This document shows, piece after piece, positions 9,229 through 51,156 of a stretch of 64,000 bases of DNA. Below the pieces are notes generated by a model. It made no database searches. It was not told the DNA's origin and worked only from the letters and a program-made list of their open reading frames with translations. Position 1 is the first letter of the stretch. Every line of letters starts with the position of its first letter. Position numbers and translations under genes: made by a program. This DNA is from Eunapius fragilis (lineage: Eukaryota; Porifera; Demospongiae; Spongillida; Spongillidae): NCBI GenBank assembly GCA_963681505.1, contig OY811974.1, forward strand, positions 12,608,144 through 12,672,143. The letters run 5' to 3'.

Positions 9229-11526
9229 TCAGATACACTTCCTAGCAGCAGCATGAAGCTGGTCCAAGGTCAGGTCAGCAGGAAGTGCCTGCCTCTTCAG
9301 CCACCCCTCGGCCTTGCCTGCCACCAGCTCCCACTCCTCTTGCTTGTCTTGGTGTCTGGTTTGCATCACGCACAGAGCCAACACAGTGGCCCAGACCGTG
9401 GCCATCACACCCACGCACTTCACGGGACACGCCCCTTCCAGCTCGCTCCTCCCCTTACCCAATTGGTGGGCGAGGCAGTCGTCAAGACACCACGAACCAT
9501 TGGCCTGTTGAAGAGTGACCAGGGCGGATAGACTGGTCTGGGGCTGAGGGGCACACTGGCTCACTGGGGAACGAGGGGGTGTGGGGCAGTCCGAATCTGC
9601 AGGGAGACTCAAACGGCACGTTGCCATGGTCTCAGATGGTAAACACATGGCCTCAGGTGGTGATGAACTGCGTGCTGTATGTCCAGACAAGTTAGAGCTC
9701 CCAGACCAGCCTGAATATAACCCCGAGAAAAAACCACCTGACTTCTTGAGACTGACAACAGATCTCTGGAAGCGCAGTGCCAATTGACTTAGAGCTTCAG
9801 CTCTATCATAAAGTTCCTCCAGCGTTACTTTGCGTTGCAGTACATGTCCAGTGTGCGCCTCAATTATCCTCGTTACATCACCTACCTGAGGAGACATATA
9901 GTTAGCTCCACCTCCTGACCCCTCATTGCGGAAATCCACGTCCCAGGTCTTCATTGGACCCCTCACAGGGTCCTTTTTCCCTTCGTCCACTGCAATGTAG
10001 GCCGTGTAGGAGGAGACCACACCCATTTCCTTACTCAGTTCCACTATGTCCTCCATTCTTCTGCTGCCTCGTTCCCGGTCCTTTATAAGGGCCTTGCCAG
10101 CTAGATGGTGTATGGTTGGAAATTCTGAGGGAGTGGAGTCTATGTTGAATGAGATGGTGTGTTCAACACTAGCTCCAAGCATCAATGCCTTGAGCGTTGC
10201 AACTCCGCTAGCGTGGGATGTGGGTGTGGACTTTGGACTCATAATCCCGTATATCACTAACTTCTCTCCGTTGAAAATAGGTGGAATGGTCTGGGGACTC
10301 TGGAGCACTTCAAACTCTGTTGGCACCTTAAACTCCACAACCACATCAGTAACAGCAGGTTGAAGAGCCCTCTTAAGACTTCTGATCACCTGATAATGAA
10401 TTAAAATAATACTGAGCAAGTGACATCAGTTCTCAATTTCTACACGTATATTTCTGACAACTATGTAGTTATAACTGCACTCTGCATTGGTGCTACCATA
10501 ACCCCATGTACCACATTATAGGCGCTGCAATAACCCCGATGAGCAGCACCCCAATTGGTGCTACCGTAACTCACCTTGGCTTGCATCCTCTCTCCTTCCT
10601 TTACAAACTCAGATGTGCCTCCGCCCGCCTTGGCCAGTCCCTCCACCAGATATGTCGAGGTCCCAGACCCAATACCAAACGTGAAGCACCTAGGATCAAA
10701 ACAGCACAACATTAATTGCCGGTGGCAATGGCGCTGGGAACCAGACATACCTTGCCGTGTGGGCGTACTTCCTCACACACTCGACACACTGCTGCGTGTT
10801 GCTCACCGACCCATCAGTGAGGACAAAGACCTGCCTCGGGAGTCCTGGACGGGGCTTCAGGGAGAAGACATGCTCCAGAGGTGGGAGGAGCTCCGTGCCC
10901 CCCAGGTCCGCCTCCACAGTCTGGGCATGGGACACCGCCTTACTCAGGGTGTCCTGGTTGTAGGGAAGGCTGGAAGGGAACAGGTCCACGTAGCTGGAGC
11001 CAAAGCCGATGATGTTGAAGAAGCAGCCCTCCCTCAGGCTCTTCAGGAAGAGGATGAGAGTCTCTCTGGCGCTGTTGATGTATGAACCATACATGCTGCC
11101 GCTCCTGTCCACGAGGAAAAAGAACTCTCCCGCTGCCTCCAATGCCGGGAACTCTGGGTAGAAGGTAACCATGACGACTGGCCCAGACATGTAGCCCTTT
11201 GTGGTGATATCAGACGTTGCACCTCCCTCCACTAGAACTGATGGCTTGTGTGGTTCCCTGCGCTTGATGAGGATGACCAGGTCTTTCTCTAGGTTTCCCT
11301 CCAGTAGGGTCACGGTCACGCCCTCGCCATCTCTACTCGAACTGATCGAGTGGGTCGGTGACGTCACCGCTTCCACCTCAGCGGCGTTGTGCACCTTCAT
11401 TGTGAACCCGCTCACGCCAGGCCCGTTGGCGTGCTTCACGTTCGCGCCCTGACCGGTACCGCCGCCCTGTATAGGTGCCGCCGGGTCGCTAAAGCCCGCC
11501 GGCGCGTACCTCGGTTTCAAGGAGGC
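9229..11526 (-). pseudogene. VIT+VWA domain protein (VWA5-like), copy B, 5'-truncated
   Basis: Three exons on the minus strand: up to 11526-10751, 10689-10575 and 10389-9229, with the same splice sites as the intact copies. The VWA domain is present, but its MIDAS reads 'DRSGSMYGS' where the other copies read 'DRSGSMSGS'. The first ~140 residues (most of the VIT domain) and the start codon are missing: at 11526/11527 the sequence jumps into the divergent Calx-beta gene. Relative to copy C this is a 933-bp deletion (32858-33790) with a 2-bp 'gc' overlap. Without start and promoter it is probably not expressed as a normal protein, although what remains is open. Confidence 0.9.
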
Positions 11527-11615
11527 TGTGCTTGGCGTCCCACGTACGTTATTCGCTATACTCATTCATTATCACATTGCACGCTTATATTCATACGTGC
11601 TTCCCTTCCCGTCTC

Positions 11616-11754: not shown

Positions 11755-14700
11755 TCGTCTCTGCACAGGTAACATGCTACACTTCTAGCGACACTTGCAG
11801 CTCTACGGTTTCACCACATCGGATCGGTAGCCAGGGTACGGGACAGTATTGCGTCAAGGAAGGAGGAAGGTCCTACATTGAATGGGACACCGGTCCTTGC
11901 TGGGCTTGCGTAGGTAAGTGTTATCTTATTCATGTACGTTCGTTGCCCTCAGCTAGTGTCTCCCTCCCGCGACAGTGTACGGGTTCTTTCCAGACCAGGC
12001 CTCCACCTCCTTACCTATAACAGGCATATCTCACAGAGAAGGGTCCCAGTTGAGCGTGTACTTTGGATACGTGAACGGAACTTTGTCGAGTAGTAACCAT
12101 CTCGTTGTCTTCACAGTGCTGGATAGTAAGTTCGACTCCATGGTGCGCGCGCCGCTCTTTGATTTTTGTCTCTCTGCAGATCCTACTCGATACATCAAAA
12201 CCTTTGCTAGTGGTATTTTGAACAGCAAAACGACCAGAGTGCCGTTTTCACTGAACGTTCTTTTGGACAACAAAGCCTTTCAGCCTCCACTACTGGTCCC
12301 AGTCAGTGCCACAGTCGATGGTAATTATGCGTTTGTTATGCCTTTCAGTGTTACAATATTGGATGGAGATGGTGAGTGGGCGTGGTTACATATGCCATCA
12401 CGTGGTTAACATAGCTGCATACCATTCTAGTTGTCAATATCGGGTTCCAAGAACGATATTTAGTGTGACAGAAGGGGAACCACCACCAAACCAATATCCT
12501 AACATTAAGCTGGTCAAAAATAAAGAGATTGTCCAGCCACTTAAATTACAGCTAATACCACTGATGACAGCTGACCAGTATAGGGCTCTGAATTTTCAAC
12601 TACCAGCTGGTACTAGCCTGTCGAACCCAGCCCAGTGTAAGTGAAGGCCTTCACATTGAATACTCTTGGCTACTGGTTGTTGTTCTTGTTCCTCAGACAT
12701 ACCCAATGGACCTCAGGACTTCAATGCAACACCTATAAATCTCACCTTCTCCACTCTACCGCATGATAATGTACTCAGTCCACTTGTTGGCATTGTGGAT
12801 GACCATATTAATGAGGCAGACTGGGAGTTTTTTTGTATAGTGAGGATCTTAGATACCTCCCTGGTCACGTCTGGGCGTGTCAACATCACTAGTCCCTCTA
12901 CAGTCATACAGATAGTTGATAATGATCGTAAGTCATTTCACACCATTGCCAAGTAAATATTTTGATAAGCCCTTCCATATGAGGTGGCCTGTTATGACAT
13001 CACTTTGGCTAGGCAGGGAAGCACTAACCACGTATGCGCAACATGTGAGAAATAGCTAGCAGGCAGGGGGGCTGGTGATGGAGGGGGTGTGCTCCCACCT
13101 AGTCACATGTAACAAAGAAACTCTGTCAGTAGAGGGATGGTACATTTTAAACTACATTAGTTAATCGGGTAATCACTATGTTCTTGTATGGTCGCATGCA
13201 TATGTTTCTATGTGGGACATATAGTCCTTATTAGTGCAGACATATGTTACATTTATAACTATTTCCTATGTCTGTCCCATTGCAGCCATCTCAATAGGCT
13301 TTGGACAGGCAGAGTACACCTTTACTAAAGGGGGACAACCTGGATCAATAATACTGGTCAAGGATGATGGGGTGGTGACTGAACAGACCATCCATGTCCA
13401 GGTGACAACAGACACCAGTGCAGTGGAGAACCAGGCCATGTATAATGTGGACTTTGCTATAGGAGGCAATCCAGTGCAATATTACTCAATACTACCACAC
13501 CAACAATACATCTCCTTTTCAGTCAACATTTTTAATGATACTTCGGTTACTGGGACTATTCAGACCACCCTGGTTTCCGCATGTTCTCTGAATTCAGTTC
13601 CATATGACACACCACACTACCCCACTACCACACTAGTCATCTTGAATAAAAATGGTGGGTTCATATGAGGGATCACATGATCTGGTTGTAATGGTCATCT
13701 CTCTATGTGCAGTTGCTATTCTAGGGTTTACTAGTGGTGAGAATGTTGTAACTGAAGGAGCAGATTTTTATGTCTGTGTACATGTCACAAAACCTGATCA
13801 AAATGCTCGGATACAGCTATCTTTCTATCTACAGGTGGACCTAACCCCTGTCACTGCAGGTGAGAAAGAGAGGGAGATGGGAGGGTAGGCAAGTGAAATA
13901 TGAGTGTCATTGCGGCTAACCCATAAAAACTGAAATACCCTGATATGTATGTAGTACCCTCATCACATCATAGCTGCCCCTCCCCCCACCCCCCCCCCCC
14001 CCCCCCCCCCCTTCACCCGGCCATGAAAAATTGTAGGGTAATGTATTTAAGCAGTGACTATTGCAACCTAATTAAGTCGATGTGGCACCAACATAATTAA
14101 CATGTGCTGATCCTATAGACAAATCTGATGTTTCAGTTTCCTCAACTGGTTGGGGGCCATTCCGAAATGATATCAGGGATGCCTGCTTTCGGGTGACAGC
14201 GTTGCTTGATTCATATTTTGAGGGAAACCAGATATTCCAGTATTCCCTCTCCGTACTTTGGGTTAGTCAACCATCATCAGTCATGGTCTCACCCAACACC
14301 ACAGTGGTGACCATTAAGGACAACACCCGTAAGAGGAGATGGAGGAGGAGAGGGGAGGGTTATCAACTAACTTGTTCTTTCCACCCCTGCAGCCCTCACT
14401 ATCGGGTTTGACCACACCCAGTACATTGTAAAGGAGTCGAAATCTTCTGTCACCTTAAATGTGTCCAAACTGGGCAATGTGAGGATACAGGGGACCAACG
14501 TTACAGTAATGTTCTCCACTGTGGATGGAATTGCACTTGGTTAGTGGGTGTGGCTACTGATAAAGAGGTGCTGATGGGAATACTCAAACAAACATAAAAA
14601 TTTAAAATGAAATTGGGGGTGAAAGATTGGTTGACACATATGCAATCTCCACCTCCCCACCCCCACCCCCACCACACACACACCTCAATTGTTTGAGATC

Positions 14701-20916: not shown

Positions 20917-21010
20917 ATGATCATGAAATTGGTTGTATTACTGGCCCTAGTGACCATCTCTGTTCACGCCGGGGTTTTGAACAAGAAGGAGGCCGAGGCC
21001 ATGCAGCAAG
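20917..21010 (+). CDS. Knottin gene exon 1: signal peptide and start of pro-region
   Basis: Starts ATG 20917 (a second in-frame ATG lies at 20923). The hydrophobic core 'LVVLLALVTISVHA' is followed by a charged segment. Donor 'CAAG|GTTAAT' after 21010; the exon ends in phase 1. Confidence 0.85.
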
Positions 21011-22901
21011 GTTAATGTTTATTTTAACCCTCGGGTCAAATTAGATATTTATGTGGATTGTTCGTTTCCACCCCGATTTGCAGAGAACATGTATTATGCC
21101 CGTGAAGACATGTATGTTTACTTACATGTAACCCTGCAACAACCGAAACTGGCACTTCGTCCCACCCAGATCTCAAGATAGACAACCACGGGGAAAACCG
21201 GTGAGTGCATCGTCTTATAATCCCTCACGGCTTCATATAGATATTTTTCATTCAGTGTGTAAGTTTGGAGGGATCAATATCGATCGGACGTGTATACATA
21301 ACCATTGAATTGCTCGTCGTCGGATTCGAATCATTCAATAACGGCATATATAGGTCAGTTGTACACTCCAAACCTTGTGCAGATTTATTCTTCACTTTTA
21401 TATCGACCAAATTTAGAATCCCGGGGTAATTTTGAAATCAAAAATTGTCCTAATCCATTTGCATATAATCGTTTTCAATGATCCAATCCATTGCGCTGAA
21501 TCGCGCTGAAGGCCTGCGTAAGTACATATAATCTTTGGATGCACCTTGATTATTTCACCTGGATATGTATATGACGCGTCTGTGACGCGCTACACATTGT
21601 ATGTGGCAAACCGGATTTCATTGTAGCCTCCTGTGAGTGCATATTCATTGACGGTTCGAATTAACATGTATGAACACAAACCTTTTTTTTTTTTTAAATT
21701 GTCAAAAAACATTTAATAGCTCGTAAGTGGGAGTTGTTGCACGTTACCACAGCTATCTGTGTACATTCTGAACAATTTGTTCGATACATGTATGTATGTT
21801 CTAATACCACATCTTCATGAACTCCTCGATGACGGGCCGGACCGTTCATAGTGGGTAAGACATGCATGCATCTACCGACTGAAGTAACTTAATGGCATAC
21901 ACCTTCTCCTGCTCTCGTGCTTTTTGTTTAAAACGCAAAAAATCGCATCTCAAAAGGCGGTAAGTTCGCACATGCATCACTAGACATCTTTTTTGCACGA
22001 CACCAACACGAGAATCAACTGCATTCACCGTTTATTCGTCGATTATTCTGCCACATCTGACTTAGTGTGTAAGTTTAAATGTATTATTGTTAGCATGCAT
22101 AATTGTGATACTTATATATAGTGCGTAAGTTGAAGCGATCATGCTTGCAGTAGAAAATTAAAGTGATTTATTGTTCCGCACTCCATTTCTTCCCTCAGAG
22201 AGTGAGTTAAATTTTTTATATCAGCGGTGTGATTTAATTTTTTTTTCCTTTAAAAGGACGTGAGTCCACCAATGTCGTTATTTCATGCACCGTTACGTTT
22301 CTGCCCGTCACATTTTGAATTCATTTTATAGTCGGTAAGTTGATACTATTAACATTTTTTATCGGAAGATACTGCTTTGATCCTTGGTATGCACTCGCGG
22401 CAATGGCAATTACTTGCCTGACCAATTTCAGATAGTAAGTTCCATGCAGATGTTTTGAATAGTGATTTAATTTTCTCTCTATACATGCAGTGCGTAAGTA
22501 GATTTCATTGTGAAACTGATGGATAAAACGAATTGCTTGATCCTGTACACGGTAATCCTTCACCGCTCAGTGGTTTGTAAGTTTTAAGTGAAAAGTTTTA
22601 CTTCCGCGCTCACCTTTATTTCCCCATCCGCATCTTACGGGAAAATATAGCCGGTAAATGCTTCTTTTTTTTATCAGTGCATAATCTAACCATGCAAACT
22701 CGCTTATATGATTTTCATCTCACAAAAGGGCGCGAACAAAAATGTAAGTTTGTGTACAAATTAAGTAGCGGCTACCACAACATTACGAACCCTCCACCGT
22801 TCCTGAACTCGATTTACATATTCAGTGTGTAAGTACGAATCAATATATCGTGATACTTTGTAGAGCCGCCTTCGCTGCTTGGATATTTAGTAGCAGGATT
22901 A
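20917..22901 (+). CDS. Secreted six-cysteine knottin-like precursor split into ~22 exons, 18 of them microexons
   Basis: Exon 1 (20917-21010) encodes a classic signal peptide ('MIMKLVVLLALVTISVHA', predicted cut after VHA) and an acidic/basic pro-region, ending in phase 1. Exon 2 (21084-21111) and exon 3 (21170-21200) continue the open pro-region and end in phase 0. Then come 18 microexons (21256-22828) of 3, 6, 9 or 15 nt, all phase 0, each flanked by AG and a strong GTAAGT/GTGAGT-type donor, with introns of 53-158 bp. The terminal exon gives a stop at once (TAG 22891 or TAA 22899, depending on the acceptor). The microexons add 27 codons with six Cys spaced C-x4-C-x5-CC-x4-C-x8-C, the inhibitor-cystine-knot framework. 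Sponge knottins (asteropsins) are known. Whether this one is a protease inhibitor, antimicrobial or toxin cannot be told. The splicing model is inference, but no frame or stop conflict arises. Confidence 0.85.
21084..21111 (+). CDS. Knottin gene exon 2 (28 nt)
   Basis: Acceptor 'ccgatttgcag', donor 'GACAT|GTATGT'. It joins in frame to exon 1 (phase 1) and exon 3 (phase 2) with no stop. A downstream donor 'ACAT|GTAACC' (21127) is an alternative, which fits less well. Confidence 0.65.
21170..21200 (+). CDS. Knottin gene exon 3 (31 nt), end of pro-region
   Basis: Acceptor 'cgtcccacccag', donor 'ACCG|GTGAGT'. It restores phase 0 exactly where the run of phase-0 microexons begins. It encodes a basic, proline-containing stretch directly before the first Cys. 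Confidence 0.7.
21256..21258 (+). CDS. Microexon 1, 3 nt, Cys codon (Cys 1)
   Basis: 'ttttcattcag' acceptor, one TGT codon, then 'gtaagt'. Phase 0 on both sides. Confidence 0.8.
21417..21425 (+). CDS. Microexon 2, 9 nt
   Basis: 'accaaatttag' acceptor, three codons, then the weaker donor 'gtaatt'. Including it gives loop 1 a length of four residues, as expected for a knottin; without it Cys 1 and Cys 2 would be one residue apart. Confidence 0.65.
21512..21517 (+). CDS. Microexon 3, 6 nt, second codon Cys (Cys 2)
   Basis: 'cgcgctgaag' acceptor, two codons, then 'gtaagt'. Confidence 0.75.
21627..21632 (+). CDS. Microexon 4, 6 nt, two Pro codons
   Basis: 'tttcattgtag' acceptor, CCTCCT, then 'gtgagt'. 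Confidence 0.75.
21720..21722 (+). CDS. Microexon 5, 3 nt
   Basis: 'catttaatag' acceptor, one codon, then 'gtaagt'. Confidence 0.75.
21852..21854 (+). CDS. Microexon 6, 3 nt
   Basis: 'ccgttcatag' acceptor, one TGG codon, then 'gtaaga'. An extra candidate, 'ccacag|CTATCT|gtgtac', lies just upstream near 21753 but has a poor donor. Confidence 0.7.
21957..21959 (+). CDS. Microexon 7, 3 nt
   Basis: Acceptor 'catctcaaaag' (an AAAAG acceptor shared with microexons 11 and 17), one codon, then 'gtaagt'. Confidence 0.7.
22066..22068 (+). CDS. Microexon 8, 3 nt, Cys codon (Cys 3)
   Basis: 'catctgacttag' acceptor, TGT, then 'gtaagt'. Confidence 0.8.
22122..22124 (+). CDS. Microexon 9, 3 nt, Cys codon (Cys 4)
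   Basis: 'acttatatatag' acceptor, TGC, then 'gtaagt'. Only 53 bp of intron separate it from microexon 8; spliced, the two give the CC pair of the knottin framework. Confidence 0.8.
22199..22201 (+). CDS. Microexon 10, 3 nt
   Basis: 'tttcttccctcag' acceptor, one codon, then 'gtgagt'. Confidence 0.8.
22257..22259 (+). CDS. Microexon 11, 3 nt
   Basis: 'ttcctttaaaag' acceptor, one codon, then 'gtgagt'. The intron before it is 55 bp. Confidence 0.75.
22332..22334 (+). CDS. Microexon 12, 3 nt
   Basis: 'ttcattttatag' acceptor, one codon, then 'gtaagt'. Confidence 0.8.
22432..22434 (+). CDS. Microexon 13, 3 nt
   Basis: 'gaccaatttcag' acceptor, one codon, then 'gtaagt'. Confidence 0.8.
22491..22493 (+). 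CDS. Microexon 14, 3 nt, Cys codon (Cys 5)
   Basis: 'ctatacatgcag' acceptor, TGC, then 'gtaagt'. The preceding intron is 56 bp. Confidence 0.8.
22571..22576 (+). CDS. Microexon 15, 6 nt, two aromatic codons
   Basis: 'tcaccgctcag' acceptor, two codons, then 'gtaagt'. Confidence 0.75.
22651..22653 (+). CDS. Microexon 16, 3 nt
   Basis: 'ggaaaatatag' acceptor, one codon, then 'gtaaat'. Confidence 0.7.
22729..22743 (+). CDS. Microexon 17, 15 nt
   Basis: 'catctcacaaaag' acceptor, five codons, then 'gtaagt'. The longest microexon of the run; it forms most of the last knottin loop. Confidence 0.75.
22826..22828 (+). CDS. Microexon 18, 3 nt, Cys codon (Cys 6)
   Basis: 'ttacatattcag' acceptor, TGT, then 'gtaagt'. 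The next acceptor leads straight to a stop codon. Confidence 0.8.
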
Positions 22902-23473: not shown

Positions 23474-25790
23474 ATACTCCCAGTTGACACTGATTCGTGG
23501 TCAAGATCTTCAGCACACCACTACTTGATAAGCTGTCTTCCCTTGAGGGTAGCGCTCTCCCTTTTCGGTCTGGGATGATCAGCTTGTTCTTGAGAAGTGG
23601 AAGGATGTAGTTGTTCCACAGGGTCATCTTCCTGTCCAGAAACAGGGACCGTTGGTGGACCAGAGTTAATCTCTAAGGGGAGATCAATTGCAACGGTCGT
23701 TGGAGAACAGTAGAGGCTCCATCCTTCGAACCATCTTGGCGAATTATCAACTTCTGTACCTTTCTTAACTTCCAAAATCCTCTTGGGATTGTCTTCATCA
23801 TGGATCAAGACCACATCTCCAACTACAATAGCATTCTTGATTCCACTTGAGCTTCGCTGCCGATGAGTTCAAGAAGGTACTCTCAACTCCACCTCCTCCA
23901 AAAGTGGTTAATGATATTGTTAAGGTTTTTGGTGCGACGCTGCAATGAGTCCACGTTGAGTGTAAAGTCTTCATCACCAACTGGTTCTAAGTGGGTGAGA
24001 TGGTCTGGCAGGCTCAATAGTCTACGCCCAACTATTAGGTGTGAAGGGGTCAAATGCTCCTCCAGGTCATCAGGAGGAACATAGGACAGTGGTCGACTGT
24101 TGACGATGGCTTCATATAACCGTTTGCATCTCTTCATAGGACAGCCTCGCCCTTCCCACTATCTTGCGTAAACATCTTTTGGTTGACCTAACCATTCTCT
24201 CAAATAGACCACCCCCACCATGGTGCTCTTTCAAGATTGAATCTCCATTCAATACCAGTGGAGGACAAATATTTCTTAGTATCAGGGTGATCACTGACTG
24301 CCTTAAGGAACTTTGCTGCACTCTTGAAAGTCTTGGCATTATCTGAGAGGAACCTCCTAGGTAGTCCCCTCCTTGCCGCAAATTTCTTGACACACCTGAG
24401 AAATGCAGTAGTGGTCATATCCAAAACAACTTCCAAGTGGATTGCTCGACACACACAGCAAGTGAACGACAGATACAAATCTTCCAACTCATCTCCTTGT
24501 CTTGAACCCACAGCGTCCCTGCAAAGTCGACTGCTGAAAACATAAAGGGCGGGGCTTCCTTGACTCTAAACTCTGGTAGAGGTGGTTGTTGAGGGGGTTG
24601 GACAGGTCTACCTTCAAATCGCTTGGACTACGCACCTATAAATGACAGATCTGACTAGACTCCTTCCACCAATAATCCAGAACTTAGACCGAACTTCAGT
24701 CATTTCCCGTACTCCATTGTGGCCAACTCGAATGTGTGCATCCCTGATTACCAACACAGTGTGATGGTGTTTTCCATCCAGAAGAATGGGATACTTCGTA
24801 GAGTAGGGAAGGTCTGCATTTTGTAGTCTTCCAACACATCTCCACAATGATCGTTCGTTCTAAAACAAACCAAACTGATTCTTCCAAGTAGGAAATCTGT
24901 CATTCCTCAGTACACCTGACTGGGATTCTTGAATCCACAACTCTTCAGCCTTTGCAACATCATCTCCTGCCAATTCAGGTGATGTGACTTGCCTCTTCAA
25001 CAACTGGATAAAGCGGCAGTGACTCGGTATAGCCTACGTGTAGTGCTGTATCTCTCATTATCAACAACATGTCCAACCTCCCCAGTTTGCTGCGCCAAAG
25101 TTCATGTAGAGGGTTGTCTTTGTTGGTTGTCTTTGTTGGTTGTCTTCAGCTCCACCTTGCACTCATTAGGAATGTCAGTACCCAATAGAGACTGATTACG
25201 TTCAGTGCCAGTTTTGAGCCACTCAGGTCCATCCTGCCACAATTTACAGAGAGAGAGTTCTGTGGGACTGAGACGGGATATCAGCTGGATTATCCTTGCC
25301 TGGGCAGTGTTTCCAACACCGAGCTGGTACTAGTCATATCTCCTCCACTTGATTTTGTACAAATGGTTTCCAGTCTCTGTCAATTCCCTTAATCCAGCAT
25401 AATGCAACTTGTGAGTCAGAAAAGCATACATGAGGCATCAACGTGTATCTTGGAGTTAGACTCTCCGCTACATTAGTAATCAGTCTGGCTAGGAGTAGAG
25501 ATGCCATTAATTCTAGGTGAGGGATGGTTTGAGTTTTTAGTGGAGCTTCTCTAGTCCTTGATACGACAAAACTCATGGTCCTCTGGTCATCTGATGTTTC
25601 AACAATGTAGATCACTGCAGCGTATGCTGTGATTGATGCATCACAAAAGCCGTAAAGTTGTGCCGACTCTGTACGTTTTCCTTTGAAGTAGTGCCTTGGT
25701 AGTGACAATGATCTCCCTTCTTGCAATGCGTCAGTTTCTTCCATTTGGACAAAAGCTCTCCTGTCAAAGGGTGCCTGTCTTTGACTTGCA
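23474..25790 (-). mobile_element. BEL/Pao retrotransposon pol fragment, broken
   Basis: Reading from 25790 down: end of RT, then a BEL/Pao-type RNase H-like region ('YGFCDASITAYAAVIY', 'PHLELMASLLLARL', 'FSDSQVALCWI') at 25744-25334; an integrase zinc-binding part ('GRLQNADLPYSTKYPILL') at 24847-24614; integrase core ('[14 protein letters not shown]', '[12 protein letters not shown]') at 24511-24200; '[13 protein letters not shown]' and 'VNSRPLSYVPPDD' at 24330-24060; and a C-terminal 'VLIHDEDNPKR' domain ending in a stop at 23521. The order is that of BEL/Pao pol. Gag, protease and most of the RT are absent, and several frameshifts and stops show it is dead. Its 5' edge abuts segmental duplication copy C. 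Confidence 0.85.
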
Positions 25791-30558: not shown

Positions 30559-33283
30559 TCAGATACACTTCCTAGCAGCAGCATGAAGCTGGTCCATGGT
30601 CAGGCCAGAAGGGAGCACCTGCCTCTTCAGCCACCCCTCGGCCTTGCCTGCCACCAGCTCCCACTCCTCTTGCTTGTCTTGGTGTCTGGTTTGCATCACG
30701 CACAGAGCCAACACAGTGGCCCAGACCGCGGCCATCACGCCCACGCACTTCACAGGACACGCCCCTTCCAGCTCGCTTCTCCCCTTACCCAATTGGTGGG
30801 CGAGGCTGTCGTCAAGACACCACGAACCATTGGCCTGTTGAAGAGTGACCAGGGCGGATAGACTGGTCTGGAGCTGAGAGGCACGCTGGCTCACTGGGGA
30901 ACGAGGGGGTGTGGGGCAGTCCGAATCTGCAGGGAGACTAAAATGGCACGTTTCCATGGTCTCAGACGATAAACACATGGCCTCAGGTGATGAACTGCGT
31001 GCTGTATGTCTAGACAAGTTAGAGCTCCCAAACCATCCTGAAAATAACCCAGAGAAAAATCCACCTGACTTCTTGGTACTGGCAGCAGACCTCTGGAAGC
31101 GCATTGCCGAGTGACTGAGGTCATCAGTTTGATTACAAAGGCCCTGCAGCATTTCTCCACGTTGCAGTACTTGGCTAATGTTCGCCTGCATCATGCTCTT
31201 TACATCACCTACCTGAGAAGACATATAGTGAGCTCCACCTCCTGACCCCTCATTGCGGACATCCACGTCCCAGGTCTTCATTGGACCCCTCACAGGCTCC
31301 TTGTTCCCTTCGTCCACTGCAATGTAGGCCGTGTGGGAGGAGACCACACCCATTTCCTTACTCAGTTCCACTATGTCCTCCTTTCTTCTATTGCCTCGTT
31401 CCCAGTCCTTTATAAGGGCCTTGCCTGCTAGATGGTGGACGGTTGGAAATTCTGAGGGAGTGGAGTCTATGTTGAATGAGATGGTGTGTTCAATACTAGC
31501 TCCAAGTACCGACCCCTTTAGCGTTGCAACTCCACTAGCGTGGGACGTGGGTGTGGTCTTTGGATTCATAATCCCGTATATCACTAACTTCTCTCCATTG
31601 AAAATAGGTGGAATGGTCTGGGGACTCTGGAGCACTTCAAATTCTGTTGGCACCTTAAACTCCACAACCACATCAGTAACAGCAGGCTGAAGAGCCCTCT
31701 TAAGACTTCTGATCACCTGATAATGAATTTAAATAATACTGAGCAAGCTAGTGACATCAGTTCTCAATTTCTACACGTATACTTCTGACAACTATGCAGT
31801 TATAACTGCACTCTGTATTGGTGCTACCATAACCCCATGTACCACCTTATAGGAGCTGCAATAACCCCGATGAGCAGCACCCCAATTGGTGCTATCGTAA
31901 CTCACCTTGGCTTGCATCCTCTCTCCTTCCTTTACAAACTCAGATGTGCCTCCGCCCGCCTTGGCCAGTCCCTCCACCAGATCTGTCGAGGCCCCAGACC
32001 CAATACCAAACGTGAAGCACCTAGGATCAAAAGAGCACAACATTAATTGCCAGTGGCACTGGGGCTGGGAACCAGACATACCTTGCCGTGTGGGCGTACT
32101 TCCTCACACACTCAACACACTGCTGCGTGTTGCTCACCGACCCATCGGTGAGGACAAAGACCTGCCTCGGGAGTCCTGGGCGGGGCTTCAGGGAGAAGAC
32201 GTGCTCCAGAGGTGGGAGGAGCTCCGTGCCCCCCAGGTCCGCCTCCACAGTCTGGGCATGGGACACCGCCTTACTCAGGCTGTCCTGGTTGTACGGAAGG
32301 CTGGAAGGGAACAGGTCCACGTAGCTGGAGCCAAAGCCGATGATGTTGAAGAAGCAGCCCTCACTCAGGCTCTTCAGGAAGAGGATGAGAGTCTCTCTGG
32401 CGCTGTTGATGTAGGAACCAGACATGCTGCCGCTCCTGTCCACGAGGAAAAAGAACTCTCCCGCCGCCTCCAATGCCGGGAACTCTGGGTAGAAGGTAAC
32501 CATGACGACTGGTCCAGACATGTAGCCCTTCGTGGTGATATCAGACGTTGCACCTCCCTCCACTAGAACTGATGGCTTGTGTGGTTCCCTGCGCTTGATG
32601 AGGATGACCAGGTCTTTGTCTAAGTTTCCCTCCAGTAGGGTCACGGTCACGCCCTCGCCATCTCTGCTCGAACGGATCGAGTGGGTCGGTGACGTCACCG
32701 CTTCCACCTCAGCGGTGTTGTGCACCTTCATTGTGAACCCGCTCACGCCAGGCCCGTTGGCGTGCTTCACGTCCGCGCCCTGACCGGTACCGCCGCCCTG
32801 TATGGGTGCCGCCGGGTCGCTAAAGCCCGCTGGCGCGTACCTCGGTTTCAAGGAGGCGGGGAGCGAGAATCGGACCCCGCCCTCGGCATCGACAGGGAGG
32901 TCTCCCACCAGTTTGAGGTGGACCTCTGCGTCCGTCCTAGGGGGGAGGTTCCCCAGGCTCACGCTGAACACGTCCCCGCTCTTTTCCTCTCCCAAAGCGG
33001 CCGTCTGGCCGCTGGCAATTGCGTCGTCGTAAATGGCGCGGGCTTCCTCCTTCTCGTGCAGCTGGGCCTTGACCTTACGCCCGTCCAATACCGCCGTGAG
33101 GCCTACCACGGCGTGCGACTGCTCCACGGGGAACCGAAACACCACCTCAGCTGGGTCGTCCGAGTCGTTCGTATACAGAAGAGCCGTCTCGAGACCGGTG
33201 ACGTAACCTTTTACATCTGCTCGGACTTGGACCGACTTGAGTGGGAGGGAAGAGTTCTTGTTCGTTACCATAAGCCCTGCCAT
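30559..33283 (-). CDS. VIT and VWA domain protein (VWA5-like), copy C, intact
   Basis: Exons 33283-32082, 32020-31906 and 31716-30559 join to 825 codons including the stop, with no break. Residues 1-150 form a VIT domain ('VTGLETALLYTNDSDDPAEV', 'FRFPVEQSHAVVGL', 'SLGNLPPRTDAEVHLKLVGDL'). A VWA domain follows with MIDAS 'DRSGSM' and 'LTDGSVSN'. The C-terminal half is specific to the family, with a Ser/Pro-rich linker and a final helical part. VIT+VWA proteins include animal VWA5A/VWA5B and, more distantly, inter-alpha-trypsin inhibitor heavy chains. No signal peptide is visible, so a cytoplasmic role like VWA5A is likelier. It is divergent from the Calx-beta gene starting about 0.5 kb away. 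Confidence 0.92.
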
Positions 33284-33886: not shown

Positions 33887-36559
33887 TCGTCTCTGCACAG
33901 GTAACATCCTACACTTCTAGCGACACTTGCAGCTCTACCGGTTTCACCACATCGGACAGTAGCCAGGGTACGGGACAGTGTTGCGTCAAGGAGGGAGGAA
34001 GGTCCTACAAATGGGACACCGGTCCTTGCTGGGCTTGCGTAGGTAAGTGTTATCTTATTCATGTACGTTCGCTGCCCTCAGCTAGTGTCTTCCTCCCGCG
34101 ACAGTGTACGGGTTTTTTCCAGACCAGGCCTCCACCTCCTTACCTATCACAAGCATCTCTCGCAGAGAAGGGTCCCAGTTCACCGTGTACTTTGGATACG
34201 TGAACGGAACGTTGTCGAGTAGTAACCATCTCGTTGTCTTCACAGTGCTGGATAGTAAGTTCGACTCCATGGTGCGCGCGCCGCTCTTTGATTGTGTCTC
34301 TCTGCAGATCCTACTCGATACATCAAAACCTTTGCTAGTGGTATTTTGAACAGCAAAACAACCAGAGTGCCGTTTTCACTGAACCATCTTTTGGACAACA
34401 AAGCCTTACAGCCTCAACTAGTGGTCCCAGTCAGTGCCACAGTCGATGGCGTTTGTTATGCCTTTCAGTGTTACAATATTGGATGGAGATGGTGAGTGGG
34501 CGTGGTTACATATACCATCACGTGGTTAACATAGCTGCATACCATTCCAGTTGTCAATATCGGGTTCCGAGAACCATATTACAGTGTGACAGAAGGGGAA
34601 CCACCACCAAACCAATACCCTAACATTAAGCTGGTCAAAAATAAAGATATTGTCCAGCCACTTAAATTAAAGCTAATACCACTGACAGCTGACCAGTTTA
34701 GGACTCTGAGCATTCCACTACCAGCTGGTACTAGCCTGTCTAACCCAGCCCAGTGTAAGTGAAGGTCTTCACATTGAATACTTTTGGCTACTGGTTGTGT
34801 TCTTGTTCCTCAGACATACCCAATGGACCTCAGGACTTCAATGCAACACCTCTAAATCTCACCTTCTCCACTCTACCGCATGATAATATACTCAATCAAC
34901 TTGTTGGCATTGTGGATGACCATATCAATGAGGCAGACCAGGAGTTTTTTTGTATAGTCAGGGTCTTAGATACCTCCCCGGTTACATCTGGGCGTGTCAA
35001 CATCACTAGTCCATCTATACAGTCATACAGATAGTTGATAATGATCGTAAGTCATTTCACACCATTGCCAAGCAAGTATCTTGATAAGACCTTCCATATG
35101 AGGTGGCCGGTTATGACATCACTTTGGAATGCTGGGGCTGGTGATGGAGGGGGTGCGCTCCCACCTAGCCACATGTAGCAAAGAGACTTTGTAGAGGGAT
35201 GGTACATTTTAATGCATTAGTTAATCTTATTAGTGCGGACATATATTACATTTATTTAATTTCCTTATCCCACTGCAGCCATCTCAATAGGCTTTGGACA
35301 GGTAGAGTACACCTTTACTAAAGGGGAACAACCTGGATCAATAATACTGGTCAAGGATGATGTGGTGGTGACTGAACAGACCTTTCATGTCCAGGTGACA
35401 ACAGACAGCAGTGCAGTGGAGAACCAGGCCATATATAATGTGGACTTTGCTATAGGAGGCAATCCAGTGCAATATTACTCAATACTACCACACCAACAAT
35501 ACATCTCCTTTTCAGTCAACATTTTAAATGATACTTCGGTTACTGGGACTATTACGACCACCCTAGTTTCTACATTTCTCTGAATTCAGTTCCATATTAC
35601 ACACCACACTACCCCACTACCACACTAGTCATCTTGAATAAAAATGGTGGGTTCATATGAGGGATCACATGATCTGGTTGTAATGATCACCTCTCTATGT
35701 GCAGTTGCTATTATAGGGTTTACTAGTGGTGAGAAAGTTGTAACTGAAGGAGAAGATTTTTATGTCTGTGTACATGTCACAAAACCTGATCAAAATGTTC
35801 GGATACAGCTAACTTTCCATCTACAGGTGGACCTAATCCCTGTCACTGCAGGTGAGAAAGAGAGGGAGATAGGAGGGTTAGGCAAGTGAAATACGAGCAT
35901 CATTGTGGCTAACCCATTATAACTTCAATATATCTACATTATTGTACTGTAAATTCTATTGCAGATATGTACCCTGATGTATATGTAGTACCCTCATCAC
36001 ATCATAGCTGCCCGCCCCCCCCCCCCCCCCCCCCCCACCCAGCATGAAAAATTGTAGGGTAATGTATTTAAGCAGTGACTATTGCAACCTAATTAAGTTG
36101 ATGTGGCACCAACTTATTAGCATGTGCTGATCCTATAGACAAATCTGATGTTTCAGTTTCCTCAACTGTATGGGGAGCATTCCGAAATGATATCAGGGAT
36201 GGCTGCTTTCAGGTGACAGCGTGGTTTGATTCATATTTTGAGGGAAACCAGATATTCCAGTATTCCCTCTCCTTATATTGGGTTAATCAACCATCATCAG
36301 TCATGGTCTCACCCAACACCACAGTGGTGACCATTAAGGACAACACCCGTAAGAGGAGATGGAGGAGGAGAGGGGAGGATTATCAACTAACCTCTTCTTT
36401 CCACCCCTGCAGCCCTCACTATCGGGTTTGACCACACCCAGTACACTGTAAAGGAGTCGAAATCTTCTGTCACCTTAAATGTGTCCAAACTGGGCAATGT
36501 GAGGATACAGGGGACCAACGTTACAGTAATGTTCTCCACTGTGGATGGAACTGCACTTG
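33887..36559 (+). pseudogene. Calx-beta repeat protein, copy C, frameshifted and 3'-truncated
   Basis: Exons 33887-34042, 34105-34254, 34308-34491, 34551-34754, 34814-35046, 35279-35646, 35705-35851, 36139-36348 and 36413-36559 match copy B one for one. The first is Cys-rich ('GTGQCCVKEGGRSYKWDTGP'). Lesions relative to copies A and B: an 8-nt loss near 34449, a 2-nt gain near 35022 and a 1-nt loss near 35574, each shifting the frame. After 36559 homology ends near 36660 and the exons found at 15034 onward in copy B are absent. It keeps the promoter side that copy B lost, so neither copy is complete. Confidence 0.85.
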
Positions 36560-40205: not shown

Positions 40206-40246
40206 CCCTACTATGCTCTACAAATGTTGCATGCACAGCTTTTTAA

Positions 40247-40804
40247 TCATGCCATAACATACCTTTGGGTGGTAGTGGTAGTGCTGTGACCCCTGCGGTA
40301 CCGCGTCCTCTCGGAAGCACATTTAGCCAATCGGACAGCGGGGTCATTCCAATACCGACTCCTTTGAGATGCTTTAATGGCAGCTGAATTGTCCTCGTAT
40401 TTCTGCCTGTTAGCAGCGCGGTTCCCCTCGAGGTCCTCTTCATATCGCCGCCTTTTAGCAGCACGGTTCTCCTCGAGGTCCTCTTCATATCGCCGCCTTT
40501 TAGCAGCACGGTTCTCCTCGAGGTCCTCTTCATATCGCCGCCTGTTAGCAGCACGGTTCTCCTCGAGGTCCTCTTCATATAGCCGCCTTTTAGCAGCACG
40601 GTTCTCCTCAAGGTCCTCTTTATATCGCCGCCTTTTAGCAGATCGCTTAGATTCAATATCTGCGTTGTAGCTGTCGCGTACAGAGGCCTTCTTCTTTTCG
40701 GGATCGGCCTTGTAGAGCGCTCGGGCTTTAGCTTTGTTCTCGTCTTGCTTTTGGAGGTATTCCGCTCGTTGCTTAGATCTCTTCTTTTGATTACGCGAAG
40801 GCAT
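40247..40804 (-). CDS. Helitron-associated ORF1: Lys/Arg/Glu-rich repeat protein
   Basis: 185 residues from ATG 40804 ('MPSRNQKKRSKQRAEYLQKQ'). One 'YKADPEKKKASVRDS' repeat is followed by six near-identical 'RRRYEEDLEENRAAK' repeats and a C-terminal 'RYWNDPAVRLA', 'RTRYRRGH'. Highly charged and predicted helical, probably a coiled coil or nucleic-acid-binding domain. The ADPEKKK repeat is, to my memory, very common in sponge transposon proteins. Copies at 41427-44330 (interrupted) and 45427-46311 (one nonsense codon) differ mainly in repeat number. The true start is the ATG: upstream in-frame sequence has no other. Confidence 0.7.
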   Translation of the reverse strand: MPSRNQKKRSKQRAEYLQKQDENKAKARALYKADPEKKKASVRDSYNADIESKRSAKRRRYKEDLEENRAAKRRLYEEDLEENRAANRRRYEEDLEENRAAKRRRYEEDLEENRAAKRRRYEEDLEGNRAANRQKYEDNSAAIKASQRSRYWNDPAVRLAKCASERTRYRRGHSTTTTTQRYVMA

Positions 40805-41426
40805 TTTTAGAAAAACAACTTCACTAGCCAAAGTAACAACTAAACTGCGATAGGAACACCAAATATTTTTTGTGCAGGTTAGAGTATTTATACTGCCTAA
40901 AATTATTAATAAATATCTATTACATACATTATTAAATAGAAGTTGATATGTGTCTATATGACATGTATGGATAACGTGCCGGTAAATTTCGAAGCGATTG
41001 GTACTATTCCCGTCCTTCTAAACCGTTCCTAGCTCGAGTTATACCTTCCTAAGAAGACGACGACGACGACGATGAAGAATTATTTTAGGACTGGGCACGA
41101 GAAACAGGAAATTGTTTGTTTCTCTATAACCACACCGTTTTATGACACGGTACCAACGTAGAACTGTAGGTCGTTGTACCCTCATTCTATCGCAATAAAG
41201 AGATAAGCGATCCGTTTCTCCGTTGTCCCTCCAGATGCTAGTGAAGTTTTATTAATGACATTCATCAACCCTCAATCAATCCTATATTGAACCTGCTGCC
41301 GCAGGTTCAGATACTTGTTTATCCTGTACGTGCAATTGTCTTTCTAACCTGCATTAAAATATCTGGTTTTCCTATCGCAGTTTTGTTGTTGCTTTGGCTA
41401 GTGAAGTTGTTTTCTAAAAATGCCTT

Positions 41427-44121
41427 CGCGTAATCAAAAGAAGAAATCTAAGCAACGAGCGGAAAACCTCCAAAAGCAAGACGAGAACAAAGCTAAAGCC
41501 GAGCGCTCTACAAGGCCAATCCAGAAAAAAAGAAGGCCTCTGTACGCGACAGTTACAAGGCCGATCCCGAAAAGAAGAAGGCCTCTGTACGCGACAGCTA
41601 CAAGGCCGATCCCGAAAAAAAGAAGGTCTCTGCATGCGACAGCTACAAGGTAGGTACTTGAACATTTTTTTCAAATCGCATCAAATGCGGCGATTTTTAT
41701 ATCAAATGAAAGAGGAAAAAATGCGCATTAAAATAATGCCTTGTTTGTATTTATTGGTGCAGTATTTCAGAAGTTGCGGCATTTCAAACACTCATTTTTG
41801 GATGTACGCGGCATGATGCGAGAGGGAAGAAAAAATTGTGACGGTTTGACTTTTTTGTGCTACAGTTGTTGGAAAACAAATAGTTAATACGCCAAACATT
41901 ACTACCATATTGGATACACATTTCTAATTACTAAGATGTAGCAGGTTCATTGATCTGTAGATCACCAGTAATATAGTCCACTACAAATTCAATTAATGTC
42001 TTCTCCTTCTTCCTCCGTTTCATCGTATTTCCAATAGGTAACCGTAACTTTAGGTGTTGTTGACTTTTTTTGAGTACTTTACATTGATAACATGACCTTT
42101 ATACATTACATTCTACTGGTTAACAAACCACAAGTGTTCACAGTATAGAGTCCATTTACCGTGCAAGGATTGGCTAGTACTTCCGAAATAGTATTCGTCT
42201 GGTCATCAGTTAGGTCTGAAAACTCTACAGACAATTCGGATTTGCCCTCTGCAACACTAATTAATTTCTTTTGTAGTGTTTTTCGGAATCTGCTATCTTT
42301 TTTCTGATTTTTTTCAATGAGCCTTTCATCTTGCAGCTTGGCAACATACTCTTCATGTGATCGGCAAAGGGCTTAACTTTTCTACCTTGTTTTATACAAA
42401 ATTTTACAATATTGTCTTGCTCATCTTCAGTTTTTTTTTTAATACCAATCAATCAAGTAGAGCTCCATTTCACCCAGACTGGGGTCGGTACCCTCGTTTG
42501 AGGTGAGAGAGCTCTTGGAACCAGAGGCCGTCTCATTGTTGGAGAGGGGGTGCCTGATGTGGGAGATGTGGCTGTGCTGGGAGCCCCCATGGGGGGAGTT
42601 GCAGACCCTCTTGTAGCTGCTGATCCTGTTCTGGGGGCAGAGGGAAGAGGGAAAGGGGGGGGGGGGGGGGGGGGGGGCACACCGACATCTAATCCCTCCT
42701 GACTGACCTGGAACCGCTTTATGAACTTTGACCTCTTTGCTGCCTCTTTGTGGGAATCTAAAGTTACCCCATGTTTACCTAGAATTAGAGATCCTGAAGA
42801 GGCTTGTAACTACGTGCCAGTACCGTTAGATGCAGCTATAACGTTTGAATGATAAAGTATCACTATTCAGCTTTAAATTTTTTCAATTTCCTTTTTCACC
42901 ACTCTGAAAATATGTACTAGGTCACACTGAATATGTTTCATTGATTTTTTAACCCCTCAAAACCCCCTGTACATACCCCGCCCCCTTGATGTTCCCGCAT
43001 GTGTCATGAATGGTTTTAAAAATAGAAGATTGCATATGCAGAAACAAGGTCAAGGTTTTCACTGATGTCACTCTTTAAATCATCAATACACTTCTCCAAA
43101 TCAGCTAAGTCTTCATCCTAATATGAAATACAATTTAAAATGCAATTTGGTAACCAAATCTTTAACCTATTCCATCTATTTCTCAGGTGCACTATATGGG
43201 TCTGGGGACCAGACCACCCATAAAACAAGCCTTGCGCATCATCCAGGAGTTACGAAAATTTAAGGACTTGACTTCTAGTGCTCAAGCTACATGTAACTGA
43301 ACTCTAAATTCCTGCCTCTCAAAGGATTAGGTGCTTTTTAATTAGAATCGCTTGACACAGAACCTTGGTGGTTGAAAGAACGATGCTGTGTTTTGTTAAA
43401 ACATAAATTCAAATGGAGAAAACACTTCTTAAAGCATATTGGTGTTTTCAGATAATATGGGTGCACCCGACGCCAGTATCAAACGAATAGACACTTCACA
43501 CATCCCATCGTATGACCCCTTGCGCATCAACCGAAGTTGATACAATTTTAAAGACAGCTAGATAATGACCCTTCCTAAGTGGTGAAAACGTATTTTTCCC
43601 TGCCTCTTAACATATGAAGAAAATGTTCAACTTATAAAAAGTACCTATTTTTCAATGCGCGAAGGTAACTAGATGAGTAAATTACGATCTGTTCCAACAG
43701 TATCAATTCATGGTACACTTACTCAACTATTATAGGAACACAGCAGAGTTCAAAATTGCAGTTAAACCAACACAAACGAGCTACCTTTTTCGCACGGTGC
43801 ACACTTTCAATAGACAAATCCAGTCACAATTTTCATCGCATTATTAGATCATCATTTTTTGGTACGCGTACGTTAAATGTTCAAGTACCTATACAAGGCC
43901 GATCCCGAAAAGAAGAAGGCCTTTGCACGCGACAGCTACAAGGCCGGTCCCGAAAAGAAGGCTCCGTACGCGAGAGCTACAAGGCCGATATTGAATATAA
44001 GCGATCTGCTAAAAGGCGGCGATATGAAGAGGACCTCGAGGAGAACCGTGCTGCTAAAAGGCGGCGATATGAAGAGGACCTCGAGGAGAACCGTGCTTCT
44101 AAAAGGCGGCGATATGAATAG
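41427..44121 (+). pseudogene. Helitron ORF1 copy split by a transposon
   Basis: 5' part 41427-41650 ('MPSRNQKKKSKQRAENLQKQ', then a frameshift) and 3' part 43892-44121 ('YKADPEKKKAFARDSYKA' in one frame, 'RRRYEEDLEENRA' in another, ending at a TAG). The gap is exactly the 2,241-bp element 41651-43891. Removing it and one copy of the 7-bp duplication restores contiguity with the other ORF1 copies, but other frameshifts remain. Confidence 0.8.
41651..43891. mobile_element. 2.2-kb TIR transposon inside ORF1, 7-bp target duplication
   Basis: Ends 'TAGGTACTTGAACATTT' and 'AAATGTTCAAGTACCTA' are inverted; 'TACAAGG' flanks both sides (41644-41650, 43892-43898), and the other ORF1 copies have a single TACAAGG there. 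Terminal sequence and duplication size (7, perhaps 8 with one change) suggest the hAT superfamily. Inside, the minus strand has a proline-rich piece (42680-42453) and a Lys-rich piece (42452-42261), neither recognised; no DDE motif seen. It includes a G23 tract at 42655-42677. Confidence 0.82.
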
Positions 44122-49499: not shown

Positions 49500-50193
49500 T
49501 GCCAGCTCTTGGCTTTCAGTTGTCCCCTCGGTGGGTTTGGGCTTGCATCTTGATCCAGCCGAGTACCAAATTGCAGTGTTGTGGTGGCTAGGTATGAACT
49601 CTTCTATTCAATCAGTGTGCCCATTCTGCCCCGATATCACTTTGGATCCTCTCGGACATCATGCGGTATCATGCAGACATGGTGGGGACGTTGTCATCAG
49701 ACACAATCGCCTGCGAAACATCTTTGCAGAGTTTTGTCGTCGTGCTCACCTATCGGTAAGAGTGGAGGTTGGTCAAGGCCTTTCAAGAGTCCAGAGTAAC
49801 TCCCGTCCAGCTGATGTGCTAGTCGATGCATGGGAAAGGGCGAAGCCAGCAGCCTTCGATGTTACTGTTACCTCCCCACTCACTCCTGCCACTTTGCATG
49901 ACGCGTGTAATTCAGCAGGTGTTGCAGCTCACAAAGCAGAGTGCCGAAAGCACTCTTCCAATGACCCGAAGTGTCAGGAGCTAGGGTGGGTATGCGTTCC
50001 TCTGGCAGTGGAATCGTATGGGAACTGGGGTAAAGAGGCCCAGAACACCTTCGCTAGACTAGCTTCCATCCTCTCAATCTCCCTGCACTGCCCCAAGGCA
50101 AAGGTCCTGACAGAGATTTATGGGCGGTTGAATACTTCATTAGTGAGGTCAGTAGCTAGGGCAATCCTGTCTAGAAGATGCGTTCCAGGTTAA
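49500..50193 (+). pseudogene. RLE-type LINE 3' half, 5'-truncated, longest open plus-strand copy
   Basis: About 220 residues stay open. Order: 'LHLDPAEYQIAVLWWLG', a CCHC zinc knuckle 'CPFCPDITLDPLGHHAVSC', 'RHNRLRNIFAEFCRRAHLSV', a restriction-like endonuclease core with 'RPADVLV' and 'AAFDVTVTSP', and the terminal 'LNTSLVRSVARAILSR'. A CCHC knuckle followed by an RxPD...D core after the RT is the arrangement of R2/NeSL-type LINEs. The RT is missing. Confidence 0.8.
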
Positions 50194-50432
50194 AGAGTGT
50201 AGCTTTAGAGTGGAACTGTACATACAGTACATACTTAGTTTATATGTAGTCTAATGATATGTAATAACTATTACTGCTAATGTGCATTATTTCTATTCAT
50301 GTAAAAAAAATAAAAAAAATAATAATTATTATTATTTTTTTTTTTTTTTTTTTTTTTACAATTATAAATTATTATTATTAGGAATACAGAGAATAAAAGC
50401 ACTATTACACACAAAAAACACCTATAGATGTT

Positions 50433-50960
50433 CTAAACTACATAGCTTCTACCTAGAATGGATCTAGCCACTGAACGCACCAGGGACATATTAAGGCGGC
50501 TGTAGATGGTGTGGAGGGCCCAAGACTTTGAAGTTCCTTGGTGCATCCCGAGTGCAGAAGCGAGGCGGGAAAAGACACCCTGAGCTTCCATGCCCCAGTT
50601 ACCAAAGGTCTCCACTGCTAGGGGGATGCAGGCCCAGCCCAGCTCCTGGCACTTAGCATCATTTGCAGTGTGTTTCCTGCATTCTGCAGCATAGGCTGCT
50701 GCCCCAGCAGTGGAACTGGCGTCTCTCAAGGTGGCAGGGGTGAGGGGAGATGTTACAGTGATGTCCAGGGCAGCAGGAGATCCTCTGTCCCAGCCCTGAA
50801 CCAGGACATCCGCTGGGCGAGTGTTAGAGTGGTCACTAGAGAGCCCATACCCAGCTTCCACTCTTACTGAGAGGTGGGCTTGGCGACAGAAGTCAGCAAC
50901 GATGTCACGAAGGTGGTTGTGTCTGATCACCACATCTCCCCCATGCCTGCAAGAATTTAT
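50433..50960 (-). pseudogene. RLE-type LINE 3' part, 5'-truncated
   Basis: Open for 166 residues: 'RHNHLRDIVADFCRQAHLSV', 'RPADVLVQGWDRGSPAALDI', 'YSRLNMSLVRSVARSIL'. Its truncation lies inside the zinc knuckle and abuts an ATT-rich run; the 3' side has a T18 tract at 50336-50358. Confidence 0.8.
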
Positions 50961-50991
50961 TATTATTATTATTATTTTTATTTTTTTAAAT

Positions 50992-51022
<31 letters not shown>

Positions 51023-51156
51023 TTTTCAATAATAATAATTATTATTATTACAGCGTTATATACATGAAATACATGAAACAAGACAATACACGAATGGAAT
51101 AAATGCTCGTACAGAATTATTATTAATATTGTCACTAATTTATTCTATGAATATAC

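Follow-up and report, generated by a model that had tools for sequence, protein, structure and literature searches.

A locus in the genome of the sponge Eunapius fragilis is very probably a functional gene for a secreted, disulfide-rich peptide of the knottin type, the mature part of which would be joined by the spliceosome from 18 phase-0 microexons, 13 of them one codon long. The window, by which we mean the whole 64,000-nt stretch of DNA that was analyzed, is C4:12608144-12672143 of a 219-Mb genome assembly in 24 contigs. Its + strand carries 18 in-frame microexons between 21256 and 22828 (window coordinates), 13 of 3 nt, three of 6 nt, one of 9 nt and one of 15 nt, each flanked by AG and a near-consensus donor. 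All were found at the place and in the frame proposed by a first-pass annotation. That annotation had counted about 16 strong donors and a weaker GTAATT on the 9-nt exon; the GTAATT was confirmed, and the strong GTRAGT donors numbered 15 with three weaker ones (12 GTAAGT, 3 GTGAGT, 1 GTAATT, 1 GTAAGA and 1 GTAAAT). Its assignment of phase 0 holds for all 18 microexons; the two introns before exon 3 are phase 1 and then phase 2. The features of the gene model, all on the + strand, are as follows.

20917..21010, +, exon 1 (94 nt): start codon, hydrophobic signal-like segment and start of the pro-region; ends in phase 1; donor GTTAAT
21084..21111, +, exon 2, most likely choice (28 nt): phase 1 to 2; donor GTATGT
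21170..21200, +, exon 3 (31 nt): phase 2 to 0; end of the pro-region
21256..21258, +, microexon TGT, Cys1
21417..21425, +, microexon of 9 nt, with the weaker donor GTAATT
21512..21517, +, microexon GCCTGC, Cys2 at its end; the C5 counterpart is CTTTGT
21627..21632, +, microexon CCTCCT; the same 6 nt in C5
21720..21722, +, microexon CTC, without a C5 counterpart
21852..21854, +, microexon TGG, donor GTAAGA; TGG in C5
21957..21959, +, microexon GCG
22066..22068, +, microexon TGT, Cys3; TGT in C5 and C7 too
22122..22124, +, microexon TGC, Cys4; the CC pair is split by a 53-nt intron
22199..22201, +, microexon AGA
22257..22259, +, microexon GAC; GAC in C5
22332..22334, +, microexon TCG
22432..22434, +, microexon ATA
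22491..22493, +, microexon TGC, Cys5; TGC in C5
22571..22576, +, microexon TGGTTT
22651..22653, +, microexon CCG, with the weaker donor GTAAAT
22729..22743, +, microexon of 15 nt; C5 also has a 15-nt exon right before the last Cys
22826..22828, +, microexon TGT, Cys6
22891..22893, +, putative start of the terminal exon after a 62-nt intron, with TAG immediately 3' of the acceptor

Exon 2 was picked by eye for its splice sites among six frame-keeping choices, and an in-frame inner acceptor would shorten exon 3 to 19 nt. An alternative gene end, through an acceptor before 22864, would add a seventh Cys; it was rejected because the resulting intron would be only 35 nt, against a minimum of 53 nt elsewhere in the gene. 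The model has 21 introns of 53-158 nt, whose lengths modulo 3 (5, 8 and 8 by remainder) show no bias to multiples of three. Some acceptors of the ladder, as we call the run of microexons, lack a clear pyrimidine tract by eye. We infer the RNA splicing modelled here from the genomic sequence.

The predicted precursor has 78 residues and, read by eye from the translation, consists of an N-terminal hydrophobic segment, a pro-region and the mature part. With the exons joined in order, the mature part reads C-x4-C-x5-CC-x4-C-x8-C and then stops. The six Cys thus follow the C-C-CC-C-C order with a spacing like that of the inhibitor cystine knot (ICK), as they do in the C5 paralog described below. 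The first-pass annotation had called the product a knottin with inhibitor-cystine-knot spacing; the spacing was confirmed, and the knotted fold itself is predicted solely from it. Of what defines the named knottin families, only the cysteine order was found. A search of solved structures (PDB) gave no significant match, including no detectable homology to a solved knottin, and in Pfam no family scored above its cut-off for the peptide, Conotoxin (PF02950) falling short (E 0.024, 16 bits versus 25.1). The protein search found nothing beyond the window's own ORF. Animal ICK toxin genes encode a signal, a pro-region and a cysteine-rich mature part; the layout predicted by eye for the window gene is the same, and the Conotoxin match is sub-threshold. 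Secretion of the peptide is probable, as is its cleavage close to the basic end of the pro-region. Its function is probably defensive or signalling, a guess from other cysteine-rich secreted peptides.

The first-pass annotation had judged a chance origin unlikely, and shuffled sequence bears it out. A strict scan for AG and GTRAGT separated by 3-18 nt in multiples of three, with successive matches no more than 250 nt apart, found a longest chain of 14 microexons in the window. In 100 dinucleotide-keeping shuffles scanned on both strands (200 strands), chains reached at most 1 on 137 strands, 2 on 59 and 3 on 4. Donor-rich, low-complexity DNA might still imitate a ladder, and the genome-wide pattern matches do contain such repeats; applied to this locus, however, a chance or repeat-driven origin is scarcely credible. 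The window ladder has a dinucleotide complexity of 3.89 bits, compared with 2.26-3.36 in the listed repeat matches, its introns are unequal in length and unrelated in sequence, and it has paralogs, by which, in our view, this explanation is already refuted.

The closest of these paralogs, by the comparisons that follow, is a gene on C5. Its first exon is 41% identical to exon 1 of the window gene (E 3.6e-4, searched against the C5 stretch alone), and the pro-region ends in QRRGYP where the window gene has QPRGKP (4/6 residues in common). The counterpart of exon 3 is 19 nt long by the only listed stop-free acceptor and starts in phase 2; the exon between the first exon and the pro-region end was not located in C5. 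Downstream lie 20 microexons, 15 of them single-codon, nearly exon-by-exon parallel to those of the window gene, with weaker donors at two (GTGAGA and GTAAAC) and the cysteine design C-x4-C-x4-CC-x4-C-x10-C. The two genes use identical codons for PP, W, the adjacent Cys3 and Cys4, D and Cys5. The mature parts aligned better than all 20,000 of 20,000 shuffles, and better than 19,992 of 20,000 when the Cys were fixed in place, while the introns showed no similarity beyond shuffled controls. Conservation of triplets and splice sites between introns without detectable similarity is hard to explain unless the triplets are exons, and we regard the comparison with the paralogs as decisive for reading the ladder as a gene.

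Apart from itself, exon 1 matched a single place in a genome search, on C7 (52% identity, E 0.0177). An in-frame microexon ladder lies downstream of this related first exon; it is broken by about 7.5 kb containing repeats and then continues. It codes eight Cys, provided that the terminal exon begins at the second of two possible acceptors, and it has one GC donor. Similarity between the C7 and window introns was not detected. The C7 ladder includes three consecutive 86-nt units (L009 606-865), each consisting of one codon (GAC, GAC and GGC) and flanking intron; two units are identical and the third is 88% identical. These units are a direct sign of residue gain through exon duplication. The reading of the window gene as a signal, a pro-region and a six-cysteine knottin-like peptide, also made in the first-pass annotation, is supported by its own sequence and independently by the C5 and C7 paralogs. 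Introners or other mobile introns were rejected as the source of the ladders: of 3741 intron pairs compared, only pairs of the C7 tandem units exceeded the shuffled maximum of 31, the best pair outside them scoring 30.

The spacing of AG and donor was also compared with background. In six ladder regions (9.3 kb) with 75 strong donors, AG lay exactly 3 nt upstream in 56/75, and at 4, 5, 6, 7 and 8 nt in 0, 3, 8, 0 and 0; in the background (189 donors in 421,900 strand-bases) the counts for 3 to 8 nt were 19, 11, 13, 12, 8 and 12. Several of the ladder regions had been located via a 3-nt pattern, so the 3-nt peak is partly ascertained, but the emptiness at 4, 7 and 8 nt is not. These figures bear on the idea that the AG-NNN-GT sites are ratchet points of recursive splicing, or decoys, within one large intron, the triplets being untranslated. 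In ratchet sites AG adjoins GT, and the structure of the ladder is like theirs in that AG stands next to GT. We nevertheless consider this idea very improbable: the triplets code in frame for the ICK cysteine order, which is kept in C5 without detectable intron similarity; exons of 6, 9 and 15 nt occur as well, always in frame; and AG at 4, 7 or 8 nt is absent before all 75 strong donors.

Ladders were then sought across the genome. A first search with a Cys-Cys pattern gave 30 matches versus 37 for the reversed control; since the control exceeded the pattern, a match alone proves nothing without reading the locus. Eight of the 30 read as ladders: the window gene, one on C5, four on C1 and two on C15. 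The other 22 were rejected as genes because they look like GT/AG-rich repeats, most being called by complexity and the rest by the matched string. A three-step ladder pattern gave 251 matches versus 79 in the control, many of those listed being tandem-repeat-like, and a ladder pattern with a Cys triplet in the middle gave 29 versus 6. After matches within 5 kb were merged and one tandem repeat was dropped, the latter formed 18 clusters on C1, C2, C4, C5, C7, C10, C11, C12, C13 and C15, of which 6 were read as sequence and 12 stand as candidates. Three loci that were read lie outside this list (C5:2552406, C7:2431001 and C15:1991903). As judged from the assembly, ladders of this kind occur at several loci in this genome.

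On C1, a cluster of at least four single-codon-exon genes occupies C1:17956316-18043337 on both strands, with more ladder matches near the copies. First exons of this family were not found; its ladders resemble that of the window, which does not imply knottin identity. The four copies were aligned over 17 single-codon exons, the first of which is absent from one copy. Among ungapped columns, 4/128 splice columns (AG plus donor +1 to +6) were variable as opposed to 185/1090 intron-interior columns (one-sided p = 2.6e-6), and codon columns (10/48) were no different from introns (p = 0.44). The ten codon changes fell at first, second and third positions 5, 4 and 1 times, mostly residue-changing positions, though the numbers are small; counting one gapped exon gives 6, 5 and 2. 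An AAG exon with a GC donor is present in 4/4 copies. The C15 pair, compared over 11 exons, behaved in the same way: changes affected 1/88 splice positions as opposed to 85/1078 intron positions (one-sided p = 0.008), and codon positions (6/57) did not differ from introns (p = 0.45). By our reading, all six codon changes alter the residue. In both C1 and C15, splice sites are conserved against the intron background and codons are left to drift.

Some of these copies may be decaying, because one C1 copy has a TAA stop in a microexon, another has GG in place of one AG, and the sole splice change in the C15 pair is the loss of a donor GT in one copy. Such signs of possible decay in related ladders would agree with the window ladder being itself a decayed or silent pseudogene, formerly spliced and with its expression lost. 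We consider that quite unlikely here, as the window gene keeps GT and AG at 21/21 modelled introns, a frame without a stop, all six Cys and the terminal stop.

If the locus is a functional gene, its 21 short introns would be removed by the ordinary spliceosome, each recognized as a unit (intron definition) and most by way of a GTRAGT donor that is nearly perfect in the intronic part of the U1 site. A 3-nt exon can hardly be recognized by exon definition; intron definition is what the shortness of the introns and the near-consensus intronic halves of the donors suggest. The near-invariant GTRAGT may be compensatory, because the exonic bases of each donor are the codon and not freely chosen. General splicing knowledge suggests that an acceptor and a donor separated by 3 nt leave little room for both to be occupied simultaneously; neighbouring introns would therefore probably come out in succession, with the growing exon extended by one codon every time. 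The suggestion in the first-pass annotation that single residues might be skipped combinatorially found no support, although regulated skipping could occur in principle; the near-consensus donors rather suggest constitutive inclusion.

A broader proposal, on which our judgment is evenly balanced, is that some twenty dispersed codon-exon loci exist in this genome and that the single-codon exon is an evolutionary unit, through which secreted peptides diversify residue by residue. Residues would be gained when an exon is duplicated in tandem together with its intron (as in the 86-nt units of C7), removed without a frameshift upon loss of a splice site, and replaced freely while the splice sites stay fixed. 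The C1 copy with the lost AG, if still spliced, would illustrate the second step by losing one residue in frame.

The remainder of the window contains other features. Three similar ORF blocks lie on the - strand (9229-11565, 30559-33283 and 53664-56337) and resemble copies of a vWA5-type gene duplicated about every 22 kb. VIT and VWA domains are matched by one ORF of the middle block, and Synaptobrevin by the ORF next to it; for a VIT/VWA ORF of the window, both organism-named matches among 120 listed of 704 are to demosponges, Geodia barretti and Ephydatia muelleri. Strong donors with the same AG spacing occur at both 12126-12928 and 34255-35047, which apparently belong to the same segmental duplication. 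An ORF at 2321-2884 has a Calx-beta match below the cut-off (E 4e-05), and 25334-25744 (-) is a Pao retrotransposon peptidase fragment (PF05380). By eye, the ORFs at 49531-52470 and 62615-63632 resemble pieces of retroelements; two of them were scanned, and neither matched a Pfam family. Repetitive ORFs with short charged repeats are found in the window (40243-40831 and 43756-44121) and near a C1 ladder (L056, about 1500-2100); by eye, these are perhaps the same dispersed repeat.

If transcribed as read, the window gene would be an unusually extreme case, from a non-bilaterian animal, of a protein pieced together out of single-codon exons. How a spliceosome copes with some 20 introns flanking 3-nt exons, as regards intron definition and the order of removal, could be tested on it. 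It would also offer an unusual route by which a single amino acid is gained or lost with no frameshift, and point to a set of peptides likely to escape ordinary gene finders.

Knottins of sponges are known as peptides and as transcripts; PMC13418204 gives no gene structure for them, the words 'intron' and 'exon' having 0 occurrences in its main text. Asteropsins and stryphnines are the likeness on the peptide side, as judged by description: stryphnines have a signal, an intermediate and a mature region (PMC13418204). Stryphnines, asteropine A and asteropsins are described there as non-toxic to the tested cell lines; toxicity of the window peptide is not implied. Three examples of spider ICK toxin genes are reported to be intronless (PMC7199488), in contrast to the 21 introns of the window gene. 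No knottin or sponge gene of such a structure was among the matches listed in the literature search, which covered few subscription journals. The window gene thus appears to be a new, extreme form of microexon-gene architecture, not previously reported among those matches.

The nearest likenesses in gene structure come from other animals. Many consecutive short exons in multiples of three, the mark of micro-exon gene architecture, are present in the window gene as read on genomic DNA. The micro-exon genes (MEGs) of schistosomes likewise encode secreted proteins from many short exons, mostly multiples of three; their microexons are described as mostly 15 bp, ranging from 6 to 81 bp in the text and 3-81 bp in the abstract, with introns of 100 to almost 5000 bp (PMC10526429). 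Compared by description, the window gene differs in being dominated by 3-nt exons, in its introns of 53-158 nt, in its cysteine-knot-like product and in its sponge host. The bicycle genes of aphids, rapidly evolving putative effectors with about 17 exons on average, also have many small exons of uniform phase (PMC9168663). Their internal exons are described as almost all phase 2, whereas 18/18 window microexons are phase 0 and mostly one codon long. Among the systems compared, as their sources describe them, the nearest counterparts of the window gene in architecture are the schistosome MEGs and the bicycle genes of aphids, which belong to animals other than sponges and are less extreme.
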